Shown: piece after piece, positions 51,988 through 59,768 of the stretch
How the letters are laid out: every line of letters starts with the position of its first letter
Numbering within the stretch: the stretch's first letter is position 1
NCBI RefSeq assembly: GCF_000949135.2
Contig: NZ_JTAN02000021.1
Location: forward strand, 124,001 to 188,000
Length of the DNA stretch: 64,000 nucleotides
Origin: Burkholderia sp. USMB20
GTDB taxonomy: Bacteria; Pseudomonadota; Gammaproteobacteria; Burkholderiales; Burkholderiaceae
Direction: 5' to 3'
The notes under the pieces: generated by a model
What the model saw: only the letters and a program-made list of their open reading frames with translations
The model's database searches: none
Told to the model about the DNA's origin: nothing
Position numbers and translations under genes: made by a program

Positions 51988-52884
51988 ATGGATCACCGCT
52001 TCCGTTGGCTGGCTGTCGCGTTGTCCTGCGCGCTGGCGGGCGCCGCGCACGCGCAGGCGCTCACCGGCACGCTGAAGAAGATCAAGGACACGGGCGTCGT
52101 GTCGCTCGGCATCCGCGAATCGTCGGTGCCGTTCTCGTATTCGGACAACCAGCAGAAGAACATCGGTTACTCGCGCGACATCGCGGCGCGCATCATCGAC
52201 GCGCTCAAGGTGGAGTTGAAGACGCCGAACCTGACGGTGAAGGAAATCCCGATCACGTCGCAGAACCGGATTCCGCTGCTGCAGAACGGCACGATCGACT
52301 TCGAGTGCGGCTCGACGACGAACACGCTGGAGCGCCAGAAGCAGGCTGCGTTCTCGAACAGCATTTTTTTGTACGGGATCCGTTTCAGCACGCGCAAGGA
52401 TTCGGGCGTGAAGGACTTCCCGTACCTGGCCGGCAAGACGGTCGCGACGACGGCCGGCACCTCCGACGAGCGGCTGCTGCGCAAGCTCAACGAAGAGAAA
52501 GGGATGAACATGACGATCATCAGCGCGAAGGACCATGCCGAAGCGTTCATGAACGTCACGACCGGGCGCGCGGTCGCGTTCGTGATGGACGAGCCGCTGC
52601 TGTACGGCGAGATCGCGAAGGACCGCAATCCGGGCGCGTACACGGTGGCGGGCACGCCGCTCGTCCACGAGAACTACGCGTGCATGATGCGCAAGGACGA
52701 TCCGGCGTTCAAGCACGTGGTCGACGGCGTGATCGCGAAGCTGCAGACCTCGGGCGCGGCCGAGAAGCTCTACGACCAGTGGTTCATGCAGCCGATTCCG
52801 CCGAAGGGTGTGAGCCTCAACTATCCGCTGTCGCCGGAGATGAAGCAGCTGTTCAGGAATCCGACGGATCAGGCACAGTACTGA
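51988..52884 (+). CDS. glutamate/aspartate-type ABC binding protein (GltI-like, SBP family 3)
   Basis: This 298-residue secreted protein has a signal peptide (MDHRFRWLAVALSCALAGAA, cleavage near AHA-QA). It carries the GltI-like features TGTLKKIKDTGVVSLGIRES, SVPFSYSDN, ECGSTTNTLERQ and a C-terminus with YPLSPEMKQLFRNPTD. It should bind acidic amino acids or analogues in the periplasm. AGGAG precedes the ATG at good spacing. It has no permease gene directly behind it. A second binding protein and a permease-ATPase follow after 470 bp. Confidence 0.9.
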   Translation: MDHRFRWLAVALSCALAGAAHAQALTGTLKKIKDTGVVSLGIRESSVPFSYSDNQQKNIGYSRDIAARIIDALKVELKTPNLTVKEIPITSQNRIPLLQNGTIDFECGSTTNTLERQKQAAFSNSIFLYGIRFSTRKDSGVKDFPYLAGKTVATTAGTSDERLLRKLNEEKGMNMTIISAKDHAEAFMNVTTGRAVAFVMDEPLLYGEIAKDRNPGAYTVAGTPLVHENYACMMRKDDPAFKHVVDGVIAKLQTSGAAEKLYDQWFMQPIPPKGVSLNYPLSPEMKQLFRNPTDQAQY

Positions 52885-53246: not shown

Positions 53247-53263
53247 AAATTGTTCAACAATTT
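53247..53263. promoter_or_regulatory. 17-bp palindrome, GntR operator candidate (transporter operon)
   Basis: AAATTGTTCAACAATTT is a perfect palindrome about a central C, 93 bases before the binding-protein start codon. Its 15-base core (AATTGTTCAACAATT) is identical to the palindrome at 59396-59410 before the DUF1989 gene, so both promoters probably share a regulator, the GntR/FCD protein at 57688-58362 being the obvious one. Confidence 0.75.
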
Positions 53264-53355
53264 TCGGCGGAAAATCCCGGGAAGCCGCGTGTGGCGGCGC
53301 CTGGGAGGCGTTGCGACGTTTCAGCGCGAGAGCCGAACAACTCAGGAGCTTCGCC

Positions 53356-54198
53356 ATGTCTGCTCGTTTCCCGGTTCGACATTTCCTCCGCGGCGCGCTC
53401 GTGCCGCTGGCCTTCGCATGCTCGCTCGCGTCGGCGGCGCCGCTGCAGACGGTGCGGCCCGGCACGCTGCTGGTGGGCTCCGACCTCACGTATCCGCCAT
53501 ACGCTTACCTGGACGCCGGCAAGCCTGCGGGTTTCGATGCCGAGTTCTCGCGGCTGCTGGCACGTCACCTGAAACTGGAGCCGGTATTTCTCGATACGCG
53601 CTTCCCGGACCTGATTCTCGGGATGAAGGCGCGCCGCTTCGACGTCGTCGCATCCGCGCTGTACGTGACGCCCGAGCGCGTGAAGCAGGTCGATTTCGTG
53701 CCGTACCTGAAGACGGGCGCGTCGCTGCTCGTCGCGAAGGGCGGCGCGTTCCTGCCGAAGACGCCGCAGGACCTGTGCGGCAAGCGGGTCGGCTCGATCA
53801 AGGGCGCGTCGTGGACGCCGAAGCTGCGTGCGGTGTCGCAGGACACGTGCAAGGCGGCCGGGCGGGCCGAGATCGCGGTCCTCGAGTTCCCGACGTCGCC
53901 GGAAGCGACGTCCGCGCTGCTGTCGAAGGCGGTCGATGTCCAGATCGAGGACGCGGCCGTCGCGCAGGAGATTCCGAAGCAGACGAACGGGCGCGTCGAC
54001 ATCAGTTCGACCACGCTGCTGTATCCGATCGTGATCGGCCTGGGCGTGACGAAGGGCGATAGCGGGTTGCAGGGTGCGCTCGAGGGTGCGTTGAACGATG
54101 CGCGGCGCAGCGGCGAATACGGCAGCCTGGTGAAGAAGTACGGGTTGCAGGAGCCGACGCCCGCCGACGTCGCCAACGCGCTCGGCGCGCCGAAGTAA
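53356..54198 (+). CDS. ABC binding protein for an amino-acid-like solute (SBP family 3)
   Basis: This 280-residue secreted protein has a signal (FLRGALVPLAFACSLASAA, cleavage near 29) and the family 3 fold: GTLLVGSDLTYPPYAYLDAG, then GFDAEFSRLLARHLKLEPVF, VASALYVTPERVKQVDFVPY, and a C-terminal ALNDARRSGEYGSLVKKYGL. GGAG lies 8 bases before the ATG. It is the probable partner of the fused permease-ATPase encoded 72 bp downstream. The ligand is an amino acid or small cyclic/amide derivative to judge by the neighbouring enzymes, but is not readable from sequence. Confidence 0.9.
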   Translation: MSARFPVRHFLRGALVPLAFACSLASAAPLQTVRPGTLLVGSDLTYPPYAYLDAGKPAGFDAEFSRLLARHLKLEPVFLDTRFPDLILGMKARRFDVVASALYVTPERVKQVDFVPYLKTGASLLVAKGGAFLPKTPQDLCGKRVGSIKGASWTPKLRAVSQDTCKAAGRAEIAVLEFPTSPEATSALLSKAVDVQIEDAAVAQEIPKQTNGRVDISSTTLLYPIVIGLGVTKGDSGLQGALEGALNDARRSGEYGSLVKKYGLQEPTPADVANALGAPK

Positions 54199-54270
54199 GC
54201 GCGCGGCCAGCACGACCTGACCACCGCGCGCCGCGCGGCCGCATCACCATCCGCGGTTGAGGAGTCTTCG

Positions 54271-55773
54271 ATGCAGTTCGATTGGCACTATGCGTTTCAG
54301 CTCTTGCGGGACCAGGATTTCTGGCGCGCCTGCGTCGTGGTCGTCGAACTCAGCGTCGCCGCGTGGCTGCTCGGCGTGTTGCTCGGCTTTCCGGTAGCGC
54401 TCGCGAGACAGTCGCACCAGCCGTTGCTGAAGCGGGCGGCGGCGCTCTACATCTGGTTCTTCCGCAGCCTGCCGCTGCTCGTGCTGCTGGTCTTCATCTA
54501 CAACCTGCCGCAGGTCTTTCCGGCGACGAGCGCGGTGCTGTCCGATCCGTTCATGGCCGGCCTGATCGCGATGGTGCTGAGCGAGACCGCCTATTTCGCG
54601 GAAATCCATCGCGGCGGGATCCTGTCGGTGCCGCGCGGGCAGCTCGAGGCGGGCCGCGCGCTGGGCATCCGCTTCACCGGCATCCAGCGGATGATCGTGA
54701 TGCCGCAGGCGATCCGCATTGCGCTGCCGGCGCTGGCGAACGAGTTCATCACGATCGTGAAGCTCACGTCGCTGGTGTCGGTGATTTCGCTGGCCGAGAT
54801 CCTGCTCGTCGGCCAGCGGCTGTACACGCAGAATTTCCTGGTGTTCGAAACGATGCTGGCCGTGGCGTTCTACTACGTGCTGATCGTGACGGTGTTCAGC
54901 CGGCTGCTCGGTTATCTCGAGCGGTACCTCGACGTCAGCCGCCGTACGCCGGCCCAGGCCGGCCACGTCGATCTTGCGCTGCCGCCGTCGGCGCCGGCCG
55001 TCGCGCCGAGGCCGCGGGCGAACGCCGAATTCGCGCTGCGCCTGAAAGGCGTGCAGCAGCGCTACGGCCGCCATGAAGTGTTGAAGGACATTCATCTCGA
55101 CGTCGCGCCCGGGCAGGTCGTGTCGATCATCGGGCCGTCCGGCTCCGGCAAGACGTCGCTGATTCGTACCGTCAACGGCCTCGCGCCGGTGAACGCGGGC
55201 GAGATCGACCTGTACGGAGAGCCGTTCATCCGCGCGTCGGGTTCGCATCCGCCGCGCGTGTCGCACGAGCGCATCCTCGACATCGGCATGGTGTTCCAGA
55301 GCTTCAACCTGTTCCCGCATCGCACCGCGCTGCAGAACGTGATGATGGCGCCGTGCTATCACCGGCAGGCCGATGCGGCGGCGATCCGGCTGCAGGCGCT
55401 GTCGCTGTTGTCGAAGGTCGGGATGCTCGAACATGCGAACAAGTATCCGCATCAGCTGTCGGGCGGCCAGCAGCAGCGCGTCGCCATTGCGCGCGCACTC
55501 GCGACGCGGCCGTCGATCATGCTGTTCGACGAGCCGACGTCGGCCCTCGATCCGGAGCTCGTCGGCGAAGTGCTGAAGGTCGTCGAGACGCTGGCGAAAG
55601 AGGGGATGACGATGATCATCGTGACCCACGAGATGAATTTCGCGTTCAAGGTGTCCGACCGGATCGTGTTCATGGAGAACGGGCGAATCCTGTACGACGT
55701 GCCGCCGGACCGGATTCGCGGCAGCGCGGACGCGCGTGTGAAGGATTTTCTGAAGCACGTTCACTTCGCATGA
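54271..55773 (+). CDS. fused ABC permease-ATPase, polar amino-acid type
   Basis: This 500-residue protein joins two subunits that are usually separate. Residues 1-225 are a HisM/GlnP-type permease (about five helices, IWFFRSLPLLVLLVFIYNL, coupling loop GRALGIRFTGIQRMIVMPQA). After a Pro/Ala-rich linker (about 228-253), residues 255-500 are the ATPase (Walker A GPSGSGKTS, signature QLSGGQQQRVAIARAL, Walker B IMLFDEPTSALD). As a homodimer it would be a complete importer core with the binding protein. Its stop overlaps the amidase start (ATGA). Confidence 0.93.
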   Translation: MQFDWHYAFQLLRDQDFWRACVVVVELSVAAWLLGVLLGFPVALARQSHQPLLKRAAALYIWFFRSLPLLVLLVFIYNLPQVFPATSAVLSDPFMAGLIAMVLSETAYFAEIHRGGILSVPRGQLEAGRALGIRFTGIQRMIVMPQAIRIALPALANEFITIVKLTSLVSVISLAEILLVGQRLYTQNFLVFETMLAVAFYYVLIVTVFSRLLGYLERYLDVSRRTPAQAGHVDLALPPSAPAVAPRPRANAEFALRLKGVQQRYGRHEVLKDIHLDVAPGQVVSIIGPSGSGKTSLIRTVNGLAPVNAGEIDLYGEPFIRASGSHPPRVSHERILDIGMVFQSFNLFPHRTALQNVMMAPCYHRQADAAAIRLQALSLLSKVGMLEHANKYPHQLSGGQQQRVAIARALATRPSIMLFDEPTSALDPELVGEVLKVVETLAKEGMTMIIVTHEMNFAFKVSDRIVFMENGRILYDVPPDRIRGSADARVKDFLKHVHFA

Positions 55774-57140
55774 CGAATGACCGGATGGGAGCGGGAATGG
55801 ATCCGACGGATTTCCGGCTGGGCGACGTGAACGAGCACGCGTGTGCGGAACGGGTGCGTGCGTGTCTTGCGCATGCCGACGCGCATCCCGGCGACATCGA
55901 AGCCGCGTGGCTCGCGCGGCGCGACGACGCGGCGGTCACCGATGCACGCGCCTGGGATGCGGCGCGGCGCGCCGGCGCGATCGATGCGCCGCTGGCCGGC
56001 GCCGTGCTGACGGTGAAGGCCTGCTTCGATTGCACCGGCTGGGTCACGCATGCCGGTTCGCGCGTGCTGGCCGACGAGCCGCCGGCGCGAATCGACGCGG
56101 CGCCGGTGTCGGCACTGCGTCGGGCCGGCGCGGTGCTGGTCGCGCAGACGGCGATGACCGAGTTCGCGTACGGCGCGCTCGGCGTGAACCGTGCGTACGG
56201 GACGCCGACGACGCCGCTCGATGCGCGGCGCGAGCGGGTGGCCGGCGGATCGAGTTCGGGCGCGGCGGTGTCGGTGGCGCTCGGTGCGGCCGACCTGTCG
56301 CTGGGTTCCGATACGAGCGGGTCGGCACGCATTCCGGCCGCATTCTGCGGCGTGACGGGATTCAAGCCGTCGCGTGGGCGCTATGCGAGCGACGGCATGC
56401 GGTTTCTGTCGACGAGCTTCGACGTGCCGGGCCTGCTGGCCGCGACGGTCGGGCTGTGTCGGCAGGCGGACGTTGCGCTGCACGGCCGCGAAGCGCGGCG
56501 GCGGCGACCGGCGGCAATCCGCGACCTGCAGTTCATCGTGCCCGAGGCGTTCGTCGCGGATGACGTCGACCCGGTCGTCGGACGCGCATTCGACGCGTGG
56601 CTGTCCCGACTGTCCGCGCACGGCGCACGGATCCGGCGCAAGCGGCTCGATTGCGTGGCCGAGGCCGGCGCGGTCGCCCGCGCGGGCGGCATCATCGCGG
56701 CAGAGGCGTTCATGCTTCATCGTGCGCGGCTGGCCGCGGCGGCGGACCGCTACGATCCGCTGGTCGGCCCGCGCATCGCTGCAGGCGAGCAGGTGCGGGC
56801 GCACGACTACGCCGCGGCGCTTCAGCGCCTGGCTGCACTGGCCGACGCGTACCACGCCGAACTCGGCGACGCGGATGCGGTGCTGACGCCGACGGTGCCG
56901 ATGCTGCCGCCGCGCGTGGCCGATCTGGCCGACGAAGCCGCATACCTCGCACAGAACGCGCGTGCGTTCCGGCTGACCGAATTCGCGAACCGGCTCGACC
57001 TGCCGAGCATCAGCGTGCCCGGCGACCTGCGCAACCGGCAGCCCGTCGGCTTGCTGATCACCGGGCATCGTGGCGAAGACGCGCGGCTGCTCGATGTCGC
57101 GGCAGCGGTGGAGCGTGCGCTGACCGCCGATTCCGCATGA
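55770..57140 (+). CDS. amidase-signature-family amidohydrolase
   Basis: This 456-residue enzyme from ATG 55770 overlaps the transporter stop. ATG 55797, with GGGAG before it, is an alternative start. The Ser-Ser-Lys site is complete: Lys83 in AVLTVKACFDCTG, the cis-Ser in AGGSSSGAAV (161-163) and the nucleophile Ser185 in SDTSGSARIPAAFCG. The protein resembles the GatA/AtzF group. It hydrolyses an amide or allophanate-like bond in the cytoplasm. Coupling to the importer gene means its substrate is probably the imported compound or an early product of it. Confidence 0.9.
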   Translation: MTNDRMGAGMDPTDFRLGDVNEHACAERVRACLAHADAHPGDIEAAWLARRDDAAVTDARAWDAARRAGAIDAPLAGAVLTVKACFDCTGWVTHAGSRVLADEPPARIDAAPVSALRRAGAVLVAQTAMTEFAYGALGVNRAYGTPTTPLDARRERVAGGSSSGAAVSVALGAADLSLGSDTSGSARIPAAFCGVTGFKPSRGRYASDGMRFLSTSFDVPGLLAATVGLCRQADVALHGREARRRRPAAIRDLQFIVPEAFVADDVDPVVGRAFDAWLSRLSAHGARIRRKRLDCVAEAGAVARAGGIIAAEAFMLHRARLAAAADRYDPLVGPRIAAGEQVRAHDYAAALQRLAALADAYHAELGDADAVLTPTVPMLPPRVADLADEAAYLAQNARAFRLTEFANRLDLPSISVPGDLRNRQPVGLLITGHRGEDARLLDVAAAVERALTADSA

Positions 57141-57153
57141 CGCATTTTTCGGC

Positions 57154-57176
57154 GGCAAGGATCACCTTGCCATTTT
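57154..57176 (+). terminator. terminator-like hairpin between the amidase and ectC-like genes
   Basis: A 7-bp stem GGCAAGG/CCTTGCC (57154-57160, 57165-57171) with an ATCA loop is followed by ATTTTT. The short stem and T5 tract suit partial termination, so the ectC-like gene may be expressed at a lower level or from its own promoter. Confidence 0.6.
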
Positions 57177-57201
57177 TCATCGTCACAATTCAGAGGTACT
57201 T

Positions 57202-57597
57202 ATGATCGTCGTGAGATCGGCCGATATCGCCAATACCGAGCGCCATGCGCGCGGCCCGGGCTGGGACAGCAAGCGCATGATCGTCAAGCAGGACGGCGTC
57301 GGCTATTCCGTTCATGAGACGCGCGTGCACGAAGGCGCCGAACTGCATCTGCACTACAAGAACCACTTCGAGACCAACTACTGCGTGGCCGGAGAGGGGG
57401 AGGTCGTCGACACGGCGACCGGCAACGTGCACCGGATCACGCCCGGAACGATCTACGCGCTGAACCTGAACGATCCGCATGTCCTGCGCGCGACGCGCGG
57501 CGACCTGCATCTCGTGTGCGTGTTCAATCCGCCGCTGACGGGACTCGAGACGCATCGGGAAGACGGCAGTTACGCGCTGCCGACGGAGCAGGCCTGA
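57202..57597 (+). CDS. ectoine-synthase-like cupin (EctC homologue) without ectA or ectB
   Basis: This 131-residue protein has the full EctC cupin fold and length: MIVVRSADIANTERHARGPG, then YSVHETRVHEGAELHLHYKN, FETNYCVAGEGEV and GTIYALNLNDPHVL. The iron ligands by EctC numbering are kept (Glu57, Tyr85, His93). True ectoine makers carry ectA and ectB beside ectC, but here the neighbours are an importer, an amidase, a GntR regulator and a DUF1989 protein. EctC can also run in reverse and open the ectoine ring. A role in degrading an ectoine-like cyclic amidine is therefore possible but unproven. Confidence 0.88.
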   Translation: MIVVRSADIANTERHARGPGWDSKRMIVKQDGVGYSVHETRVHEGAELHLHYKNHFETNYCVAGEGEVVDTATGNVHRITPGTIYALNLNDPHVLRATRGDLHLVCVFNPPLTGLETHREDGSYALPTEQA

Positions 57598-57636
57598 CGG
57601 CGCGAGCGGTCGGGCCGTTGCGTGCCTTTTCGTGCT

Positions 57637-57671
57637 GCCGTTGCTTGCCACGTCTTGAGGCAAGCAACGGC
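57637..57671. terminator. long hairpin between convergent ectC-like and gntR genes
   Basis: A perfect 13-bp stem GCCGTTGCTTGCC/GGCAAGCAACGGC with a 9-base loop lies exactly between the two convergent stops. No proper T tract follows on either strand, so it is a bidirectional, probably Rho-assisted terminator. Confidence 0.65.
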
Positions 57672-57687
57672 GGCGCGGCGTGCAGGG

Positions 57688-58362
57688 TCAGGCAGCCTCG
57701 CGATGGCTGCGCTTGATTGCCTCGACGAGCATCCGCTCGGAATCGTCGAGATAGCGCGCGAGCGCGGTGACGGCTTCGCTGCGGCGGTTCTGCGTGAGCA
57801 GGTCGTAGATCTGGTATTCGCGCTGGATCCAGTCGGGCGTTTGCACGCGTTTCTCGTCGGGATCGGCGGCGAAGACGAGCCGCAGCTGTGCGGAGATGGT
57901 CCGGAAGAACTCGTCGAGCAGCGCCGACTTCTGCAGCGCGACGATGTGCTGGTGAAAGCGCAGGCTGTGCGTGCCGACGGCCTGCCAGTTTTCCTTGTCG
58001 AGTTCGCGCTCGGCCGCGCGAATGGCGGCCTGCATCTTTTCCAGCAGCGCCGGCTGCGCGAGTTCGGCCGTGTTCAGCGCATGCAGTTCGAGCGTGCGGC
58101 GTGCGACGTAGAGATCGCGTACGTCCTGGCGATTCAGCGTGCGCACGACGACACCCTTGTGGCGCACGAACGTGACGAGCCCTTCGCGGCCGAGCTGATG
58201 CAGGACTTCGCGAAGCGAGTTGCGCGACGTGTCGTATTCGGCCGCGAGGTCCATCTCGATCAGCGCGGTGCCGGGCGGCAGCTTGCCGCTGATGATGTGT
58301 TCCCGCAGTTGATGGCTGATCCGGTCGGCGACCGACTGTCCTCTCGCTTTTTCGCTTGCCAT
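57688..58362 (-). CDS. GntR-family regulator, FadR/FCD subfamily
   Basis: This 224-residue protein has an N-terminal GntR winged helix (about 8-75: GQSVADRISHQLREHIISGK, GTALIEMDLAAEY, SRNSLREVLHQLGREGLV). The C-terminal FCD ligand domain (about 85-215) has the metal-binding pattern with RFHQHIVAL. FCD proteins bind small acids and are released from palindromes of about 15 bp with TTGT/ACAA cores, which matches the two AATTGTTCAACAATT sites flanking this cluster. It lies 85 bp after the DUF1989 gene on the same strand. Confidence 0.9.
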   Translation of the reverse strand: MASEKARGQSVADRISHQLREHIISGKLPPGTALIEMDLAAEYDTSRNSLREVLHQLGREGLVTFVRHKGVVVRTLNRQDVRDLYVARRTLELHALNTAELAQPALLEKMQAAIRAAERELDKENWQAVGTHSLRFHQHIVALQKSALLDEFFRTISAQLRLVFAADPDEKRVQTPDWIQREYQIYDLLTQNRRSEAVTALARYLDDSERMLVEAIKRSHREAA

Positions 58363-58447
58363 TCCGTTCGTTCGCTCCTCTCCTGGTCGTGCGCCGCCGG
58401 CGTGGCCGGCCGGCGGCGTTTCGCCATTCTACGGGCTACGGACCGCG

Positions 58448-59308
58448 TTACGCCGTCTTGTCGTGCTGCCAGTCGGCCTGCGGCGGCTGCATCCCGTGCT
58501 GGCCACGGTACGGCGCGACGGGCGGCTGCGACCAGCCTTCGAGCAGGCTCGGGTCGAGCCGGTATACCTCGACGCCAAGCGGCCGGCACACGTCGATCGG
58601 GTCGCGTGCGTCGGGGCCCCACATCGGCACCGACAGGTCGCCGCCCGGACACGTGGATATCGCGCACAGCACGTCGATTTCCGCGAAGAACTCGAGATAG
58701 TCGCCCGGCTGCGCGGGACAGGCCTTCATGAAGTACTTGTCGTCGTCGTTCAGGCCGGTGCACTGGAACACGTTGAGCACGTCGTGCACGTCGAATTCGG
58801 TCAGCCCGTACGGCGCGACCGCCCGCACGAGGTTCGAATGACAGTGGAAATGAAAATCCTCGCCGGTCAACAGCTTGTTCACGTACGGGTCGCAGCGCGT
58901 GCCGAGCAGGTCGTGCACGCGGCCGCCGTCGCCGTCGACGCCATAGCCGGCGAGCGTGTCGTCGGTGATCGTGACCAGCGGCCGCAGGTACGGCAGCGTC
59001 GACCAGAGCCGGTCGAACGTCGTCACGTGCGCGGCCTGCAGCTGACGTGTGCGCGACGCCCACATGCGCTCGCGCGGATTGTGCAGGTTCCAGATGTTGA
59101 AGTCGGCGACTTGCGGGCCTTCGAGCGTGACGATCCGGAACACGTGACCCGCCGGCACCGTCCACGCGAAGCCGCTGCGGATCGGCACGACGTGCGACGC
59201 GATCCGTTCGCGCGCGTCCTGGCGCTGGGCGATCGCGGAATAAAAGGCTTTGTCGACGTTCAGGACGGAACCTTTGGTGACCTGGTAGGCGGCGGGATAG
59301 TTCGACAT
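58448..59308 (-). CDS. DUF1989 urea-carboxylase-associated family protein
   Basis: This 286-residue cytoplasmic protein of the DUF1989 family has VVPIRSGFAWTVPAGHVFRI, the core with GPQVADFNIWN, an HFHCHSNLVRAV histidine cluster near 153-164 and a C-terminal DLSVPMWGPDARDPIDV region. Relatives include the two subunits of carboxyguanidine deiminase and proteins linked to urea carboxylase. No carboxylase gene is present here. Its own promoter carries the shared palindrome, so it is probably co-regulated with the importer, amidase and EctC-like protein in breakdown of a nitrogen compound. Confidence 0.85.
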   Translation of the reverse strand: MSNYPAAYQVTKGSVLNVDKAFYSAIAQRQDARERIASHVVPIRSGFAWTVPAGHVFRIVTLEGPQVADFNIWNLHNPRERMWASRTRQLQAAHVTTFDRLWSTLPYLRPLVTITDDTLAGYGVDGDGGRVHDLLGTRCDPYVNKLLTGEDFHFHCHSNLVRAVAPYGLTEFDVHDVLNVFQCTGLNDDDKYFMKACPAQPGDYLEFFAEIDVLCAISTCPGGDLSVPMWGPDARDPIDVCRPLGVEVYRLDPSLLEGWSQPPVAPYRGQHGMQPPQADWQHDKTA

Positions 59309-59768
59309 GACGCGGTGCTCTCGGGGAAATTTGCAGATTCGGAGATCCGGCTGGAATCCTTTGTGGTGGCCGGTCAGGCGTCAATTTTCATGCTGAATTG
59401 TTCAACAATTTATTGGCGCTGCGAGGAGTATAGGGGGAACGCCGGGAGGTGTGTCAATCGGTGGAAAGTACGGAGGGGCGCGGCGAGCCGCGGATGCGCG
59501 CAGGCAGGCGAGTGGCGCCGCAAAACAAAAAACGAAATATGGATCAAAACCGTGGCCGTGCCGGCCGCCGGACCGGCTCGCCATGATCGGCAAGCGGGGC
59601 GTGTAACGCGTTTCGAAACCTGACGCAATCCGCATTCAACCGCGCCCGCGCCAGGGGATTCCTGTCGCGTTGCGCAACAACAGGCACAATATGCGCTTCG
59701 CCGCGCACCGTTGTTCGACTTCGAGCAGCACGGCGCGTGTCGCCGCCGTCCGAACTTTCCCGGTTGTC
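59309..59768. other. divergent intergenic region, DUF1989 / Bcr exporter
   Basis: 460 bp with no convincing gene. It holds the palindrome at 59396-59410 and the promoters for both directions. A CAATT...AATTG dyad overlaps the left part of the palindrome. Confidence 0.45.
59396..59410. promoter_or_regulatory. 15-bp palindrome, GntR operator candidate (DUF1989 gene)
   Basis: AATTGTTCAACAATT is a perfect palindrome about a central C, 87 bases before the DUF1989 start codon. It is identical to the core of the site at 53247-53263. Two exact copies at such similar distances from two start codons in a GC-rich region are unlikely by chance. Confidence 0.75.

Follow-up and report, generated by a model that had tools for sequence, protein, structure and literature searches.

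An importer, an amidase, an EctC-like cupin and a DUF1989 protein share a conserved operator and probably form one import-and-breakdown regulon in Burkholderia

Six genes of Burkholderia sp. USMB20 are apparently placed under the control of one DNA-binding protein and probably serve the import and breakdown of a small nitrogen compound; one of them encodes a relative of ectoine synthase (EctC), the producer of the stress protectant ectoine. They lie within a 64,000-nucleotide stretch (assembly GCF_000949135.2, contig NZ_JTAN02000021.1, positions 124,001 to 188,000), here called the window, whose numbering is used throughout. The cassette is made up of two facing operons, one encoding a substrate-binding protein (SBP), a fused permease/ATPase, an amidase and an EctC-like cupin, and the other a DUF1989 protein and a GntR/FCD regulator, each operon being preceded by a copy of the same palindrome:

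53248..53262: operator 1, AATTGTTCAACAATT, 93 bp before the SBP gene
53356..54198, plus strand: periplasmic binding protein of the polar amino-acid type (Pfam SBP_bac_3)
54271..55773, plus strand: importer permease and ATPase fused in one protein (Pfam BPD_transp_1/ABC_tran)
55770..57140, plus strand: amidase-signature hydrolase (Pfam Amidase) with Lys83, Ser163 (or 162) and Ser185 at the signature motifs
57202..57597, plus strand: EctC-like cupin of an amidase-linked clade (Ectoine_synth), with Glu57, Tyr85 and His93 kept and Asn59 in place of Val
57688..58362, minus strand: GntR/FCD regulator (GntR and FCD profiles), a probable repressor at both operators
58448..59308, minus strand: DUF1989 protein, best solved match 3di4, with Cys139, Cys156 and Cys220 aligned with cysteines of 3di4 and 3oru
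59396..59410: operator 2, AATTGTTCAACAATT, 87 bp before the DUF1989 gene

An earlier interpretation made from the letters of this DNA (the sequence-only reading) had reported identical perfect 15-bp palindromes at 53248-53262 and 59396-59410 and had named the gene families around them. Both palindromes were confirmed at these places, and in a profile search of the window proteins all six gene products exceeded their own Pfam cut-offs (SBP_bac_3, BPD_transp_1 with ABC_tran, Amidase, Ectoine_synth, GntR with FCD, and DUF1989). The regulator gene had been described as lying between the palindromes, which is correct as to position; more exactly, gntR follows the DUF1989 gene after 85 bp on the same strand, and it is therefore probably part of the second controlled operon and probably controls that operon itself. 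In the first operon, the reading frames of the permease/ATPase and the amidase overlap, the latter beginning at 55770.

The operator AATTGTTCAACAATT is an odd palindrome of two 7-bp arms around a central C, and its two copies are identical. When up to three mismatches were allowed, it occurred at two places only within the window, although 3 of 100 shuffles of the window likewise yielded two or more matches, so that the window alone is modest evidence and conservation provides the real test. The 13-bp core ATTGTTSAACAAT was counted in 22 loci (469,908 bases), and all 35 exact copies fell in the stretches that precede the importer operon or DUF1989 (together 11,520 of these bases). For this count some gene starts were assigned manually, and the stretch was defined following a first scan of operator sites; 13 of the loci are from Burkholderia and are not independent, and nine are from elsewhere (Shinella twice, Brucella tritici, Paenalcaligenes, another member of the Alcaligenaceae, Paracoccus, an Enterobacter plasmid, Paraburkholderia, and the genome G238 of the same order). 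With one mismatch allowed, the expected stretches contain 39 of 41 copies, and the two exceptions precede a second GntR gene of the Enterobacter plasmid; with two mismatches allowed, these stretches contain 45 of 49. Counted by stretch, the exact core is present in 18 of 21 importer stretches and in 14 of 15 DUF1989 stretches, and the remaining three and one, respectively, carry it with one mismatch. A Caballeronia locus outside the count (L100) has the exact 15-mer before its GntR-DUF1989 genes.

Eight whole cassette-bearing Burkholderia genomes contain the 15-mer, at one mismatch or fewer, at 13 distinct places, 12 of which are within about 4.5 kb of the cassette EctC gene and one elsewhere (G817, contig C3), and a reversed control pattern had no match in the same genomes. 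The site was not found in five loci with other importers and regulators (L010, L018, L094, L095 and L160), save for one stray match with three mismatches in L018, as expected if the site belongs to this GntR family. The membership of the importer, the amidase, the EctC-like cupin and the DUF1989 protein in one regulon, which the sequence-only reading had proposed and had made dependent on the presence and linkage of the palindrome in relatives, survived this sequence test in the 22 loci and the eight genomes and is well supported by the conservation and specificity of the predicted operator, at both copies of which the GntR/FCD protein probably acts as a repressor.

Some EctC match was obtained in 21 of 65 Burkholderia genomes, with at least 90% identity in 14, and in all 14 the amidase, GntR and DUF1989 genes are found beside EctC; the remaining matches are 43 to 54% identical. 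A sample of 399 genomes of the order yielded 27 EctC loci in 26 genomes; ectB adjoins EctC in 25 of these loci, and of the other two one is the cassette of G238 and one a weak partial match. G238 carries the cassette together with ectBCD, and both EctC forms thus coexist in it. Wider samples yielded no additional cassette; EctC matches were obtained in 60 of 398 genomes for the phylum, in 23 of 385 for a class and in 7 of 199 for a genus. In one EctC search the amidase adjoins EctC in 16 of 20 loci (in L007 only part of it, at a contig end), and it does so in L094, L095, L101, L160 and L161 as well, of which L094 (Caballeronia), L095 and L160 (Rhizobium) and L161 (Shinella) were added by plasmid searches through EctC, the amidase and the importer. 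The co-occurrence for which a check in Burkholderiales had been suggested was found there, and it extends beyond this order: forms of the cassette are present in Shinella, Brucella tritici, Paracoccus, Rhizobium, Pseudomonas and Komagataeibacter. Neither ectA nor ectB was found within the examined DNA of the cassette loci.

By sequence, the amidase-linked EctC proteins are a distinct subfamily. The window protein exceeds the cut-offs of both PF06339 (177.3 against 27) and NF009806 (182.2 against 128), and like bona fide EctC the cassette form keeps Glu57, Tyr85, His93 and most ligand contacts; unlike the EctC linked to ectABC, it is found without ectA and ectB, falls into a separate clade, has Asn59 for Val59 and is paired with an amidase. 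In a tree of 117 rows, many of them near-copies and with the root placed for drawing only, all 22 amidase-linked rows are in one clade of 25 with support of 100/94, the other three rows being two identical Shinella sequences and one from Methylocapsa with no amidase nearby. The iron ligands (Glu57, Tyr84/85 and His92/93) are kept in 22 of 22 cassette rows, as are Ser23, Arg25, Thr40, Tyr52, Phe106 and Cys104 (P. lautus numbers), with Trp21 kept in 21. Asn38 of P. lautus is replaced by His in all 22 rows; His is also found in 77 of 81 main comparison rows, and residue 38 therefore does not discriminate. At residue 59, each of the 25 clade rows carries Asn; elsewhere, Val is found in 84 rows and Cys in 10. 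The ectB-linked rows sampled have Val59, and L160 and L161, which are amidase-linked and outside the tree, have Asn59 too. As this residue is two along from the iron ligand Glu57, strand alternation indicates that it should face the cavity, and we infer that Asn59 offers a changed polar contact near the position of the ectoine methyl group, with which the iron may be in direct contact (PMC6344544).

The Cys59 rows make up a third class, in addition to the ectB-linked Val59 and the amidase-cassette Asn59 forms. They comprise L019, L020, L128, L131 and L133 to L138, that is six Pseudomonas-type genomes, two Roseobacter-group loci and two others, and no ectB was found within about 20 kb for L019 and L020 or within about 3 kb for the others. 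The six solo EctC of Pseudomonas, in which Ser replaces Cys104, differ from the cassette EctC in having Cys59 and no amidase match in 3.3 kb. As to the clade members that stand apart from the cassette, the Shinella loci L016 and L093 have identical EctC-like stretches with Asn59 and no amidase nearby, the L093 gene following directly after the aconitase gene acnA, while the EctC-like gene of Methylocapsa (L017:9247-11461) is flanked by an FMN-reductase-like gene and a putative cyclase (PF04199) gene, again with no amidase.

B. multivorans and B. cepacia have been named as carriers of orphan EctC (Czech et al., 2018), a group whose role is called not clear in the portions available of Czech et al., 2018 and 2019 (PMC5924519, PMC6344544). 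The cassette EctC departs from the orphan EctC as described in those portions, where no amidase, importer or operator is mentioned. No description of the cassette was found in the literature searched, from which subscription papers were mostly absent, in agreement with the earlier statement that the gene set matches no textbook cluster.

The remaining enzymes could be assigned to families, and narrower assignments were not supported by the cut-offs. The amidase scores 226.8 against a Pfam cut-off of 27, and its Lys-Ser-Ser signature motifs align with those of its best solved matches, 2dc0 (a probable amidase) and 6c62 (biuret hydrolase); as an allophanate hydrolase it falls short (TIGR02713, 187.7 against 511.05). 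The DUF1989 protein scores 198.5 against 27 with PF09347. The sequence-only reading had pointed out that carboxyguanidine deiminase belongs to this family; the window protein is far under the cut-offs of TIGR03424 (66.8 against 284.7) and TIGR03425 (46.7 against 205.95), which we take to be the models of the CgdAB pair. Like the guanidine carboxylase pathway with CgdAB, the cassette thus has a DUF1989-family protein with three cysteines (Cys139, 156 and 220) aligned with solved members; unlike that pathway, it has no carboxylase among its genes, and with the scores given above we rejected the CgdAB guanidine pathway as an explanation. In the text accessible to us, zinc-binding cysteines are reported for 3di4 and 3oru (PMC12560246), and CgdAB is included in the DUF1989 family (PMC11271267).

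The binding protein of the window is not EhuB by profile (TIGR02995, 65.9 against a cut-off of 190.9). It has kept an Asp that is presumably the binder of a free alpha-amino group. EhuB-family binding proteins over the cut-off (223.8 to 227.4 against 190.9) are found in L018, L095 and L160, which have a different importer type. A related importer is present on Rhizobiaceae plasmids (L156 to L159), where the permease/ATPase is 59 to 61% and the SBP 45 to 47% identical to those of the window. There, a conserved cluster encodes an Lrp/AsnC regulator, a diaminopropionate ammonia-lyase, a Xaa-Pro-peptidase-like protein, the SBP and the fused permease/ATPase, and it is followed by a Zn-dependent hydrolase gene in L156, L158 and L159 (two of these hydrolases were profiled, and both exceed a hydantoinase/carbamoylase cut-off) or by an amidohydrolase-family gene in L157, with nitrile hydratase genes near in L158 and L159. 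These clusters resemble the cassette in their importer and differ from it in their regulator, in their other hydrolases and in having no 15-mer operator at up to two mismatches. On the other side of operator 1, a GltI-like glutamate/aspartate binding protein is encoded at about 51988-52884 (NF008063, 400.8 against a cut-off of 375); owing to its position upstream of the operator it was not placed in the regulon. The GltI-like gene adjoins the cassette also in the Burkholderia loci covering that stretch, outside the operator-controlled operon.

How could these proteins act together? According to the text available of PMC5924519 and PMC6344544, H. elongata EctC hydrolyses homoectoine and DHMICA, with negligible hydrolysis of ectoine, and makes ADPC from glutamine reversibly, the balance lying on glutamine; ring opening by the EctC fold is therefore documented for analogues. 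This, the amidase, the DUF1989 protein, the EhuB-family binding proteins and the diaminopropionate clusters together point to a carboxylated ring or an N-acyl diamino acid, and to no single named compound. With moderate confidence we favour a repressed import-and-hydrolysis regulon whose substrate would be a cyclic amidine-type or N-acyl diamino acid and in which the cupin would open (or close) the ring and the amidase would cut the amide. The GntR/FCD repressor, bound to the two ATTGTTSAACAAT operators, would shut both facing operons until its ligand appears. Induction of the first would then supply an ABC importer taking up a small amino-acid-like compound rich in nitrogen, the EctC-type cupin and the amidase, and induction of the second the DUF1989 protein and more regulator. 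The Asn59 cupin would interconvert a cyclic amidine-type (or cyclic guanidine-type) amino acid and an open-chain amide (or ureido) form, and hydrolysis of the open-chain amide by the amidase is proposed to pull the reaction towards breakdown; the DUF1989 protein would perhaps remove an imino nitrogen from the substrate or from a side product, leaving ammonia and an ordinary amino or diamino acid. A more specific version, which we offer tentatively as a possibility and rate as rather unlikely, is that the EctC fold has been turned to catabolism and that the cupin, with Asn59 near the ectoine-methyl spot, admits a ring bearing an amino group there (a cyclic guanidine amino acid, or ADPC, an amidine derived from glutamine), which would be opened to a ureido or amide form for the amidase, the DUF1989 protein being an alternative deiminase for that ring.

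Several observations weigh against the repressed import-and-hydrolysis regulon. At the level of the DNA, a promoter scan found no sigma-70-like promoter at either operator site, and a stray exact operator core is present at L166:18863, about 9 kb from the EctC gene of that locus, with no amidase, GntR or DUF1989 match there. The cassette is also rare in the wider samples, no amidase match being found within about 1.5 kb in 30 (phylum), 23 (class) and 7 (genus) EctC loci. Asn59 occurs without a nearby amidase in L016, L017 and L093, which are in the clade, and outside the tree in L109/L166 (genome G1099), where the EctC-like gene has no amidase match in 19.5 kb; moreover, that residue 59 should point into the barrel, and hence the contact suggested for Asn59, is read from strand alternation and not from coordinates. 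The Asp kept in the SBP fits an open-chain amino acid no less than a ring. Finally, the modules are separable. Counted within the locus DNA examined only, the full set is present in Burkholderia, in L012 to L015 and in L101, but the importer, GntR and DUF1989 genes occur without amidase-EctC in L021 and L023, the importer, GntR, amidase and EctC genes without DUF1989 in L011 and L161, and amidase-EctC without this GntR, operator or DUF1989 in L010, L018, L094, L095 and L160. The partners of amidase-EctC in this last group are an aminotransferase in L010, DUF2817 and glyoxalase-like genes in L018 and L094, and a flavodoxin-like oxidoreductase in L095 and L160, with RidA in L095.

This separation leaves room for two unrelated pathways under one regulator, with DUF1989 acting on one imported compound and amidase-EctC on another, as the modules found apart in L021, L023, L011, L161 and L010 would allow. 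Both enzyme modules are, however, found separately with the same importer, GntR family and operator, which suggests one compound or close relatives as ligand and makes two pathways decidedly doubtful. Scavenging of ectoine or hydroxyectoine, whereby the imported solute would be opened by the EctC-like protein in reverse to N-gamma-acetyl-diaminobutyrate and acetate freed by the amidase as an alternative to EutD/EutE, seems unlikely to us, although not as doubtful as two pathways. Amidase-EctC does adjoin the EhuB-family binding proteins in L018, L095 and L160, and MocR-type regulators of the EnuR kind are found there (by profile in L018 and L160, by annotation in L095); a 2026 paper, in the portion available, describes Burkholderia EutD without an identified ectoine transporter (PMC13188858), so that this importer may have a role with ectoine, but no result obtained here links it to EutD. 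The cassette also shares with the EutD/EutE (DoeA/DoeB) system and EnuR, as far as the sources available describe it, the logic of import, ring opening and deacylation, but its hydrolase families and regulator are different. The cassette itself does not include EutD. At scores over its cut-off, EutD was detected in 18 of the 65 Burkholderia genomes; of the 14 that carry the cassette, 6 have it at another place in the genome and 8, in favour of the scavenging reading, have none over the cut-off, and among the 51 that lack the cassette it is present in 12. The two are not significantly associated (Fisher p 0.18), so that we rejected the cassette as a replacement for EutD. Since canonical EutD occurs independently of the cassette, ectoine as the substrate, which the sequence-only reading had put among the compounds to try, is weakened and not favoured. 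The same is true of its premise that EctC can open ectoine in reverse, in view of the negligible hydrolysis noted above for H. elongata (a minor activity on ectoine is mentioned in the text available of PMC4795551). In addition, the window SBP scores far under the EhuB cut-off and Asn59 differs from all ectB-linked rows sampled.

The opposite direction, in which an N-acyl diamino acid would be imported or trimmed and the cupin would close a ring to give a protective cyclic solute, appears improbable. The metal ligands and most ligand residues of ectoine synthase are kept, and the P. syringae orphan EctC may be a competent synthase according to the available part of PMC5924519; nevertheless, the partner here is a hydrolase, the cassette links these genes with an importer and a GntR/FCD regulator but has neither ectA nor ectB, and G238 already has ectBCD. 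The repressed import-and-hydrolysis regulon is the reading that we retain, and the earlier interpretation as a whole is partly supported.

The DUF1989 module has further settings. On the Enterobacter IncF plasmid L021 (8921-12837, 15112-22272), the importer-GntR-DUF1989 genes stand beside a second GntR gene, an NRAMP-family transporter gene and 5-oxoprolinase-type genes. The DUF1989 matches include 62 records of Klebsiella plasmids, and the gene setting was seen in this one Enterobacter record. In Azospirillum (L022, L162), a DUF1989 gene about 79% identical to that of the window is followed directly by pcp (pyroglutamyl-peptidase I), which is absent from that place in A. oryzae (L163). A pyroglutamate link, drawn from the 5-oxoprolinase of the Enterobacter plasmid and from pcp in two Azospirillum records and not in the third, was rejected and remains a hint for ADPC-type substrates, as the second GntR gene of the plasmid has its own degenerate sites.

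These results place one clade of orphan EctC in a conserved catabolic setting and supply it with a partner enzyme, an importer, a single diagnostic residue and a regulator whose candidate operator has been mapped. The annotation 'ectoine synthase', which is used to identify ectoine producers, is also given to at least one clade whose members probably do not make ectoine. A context is likewise offered for a DUF1989 subfamily, one member of which is also found on enterobacterial plasmids. If the EctC fold indeed acts here in catabolic ring opening, the cassette would represent a new route for the breakdown of a nitrogen-rich amino acid and would give one group of orphan EctC proteins its missing job.

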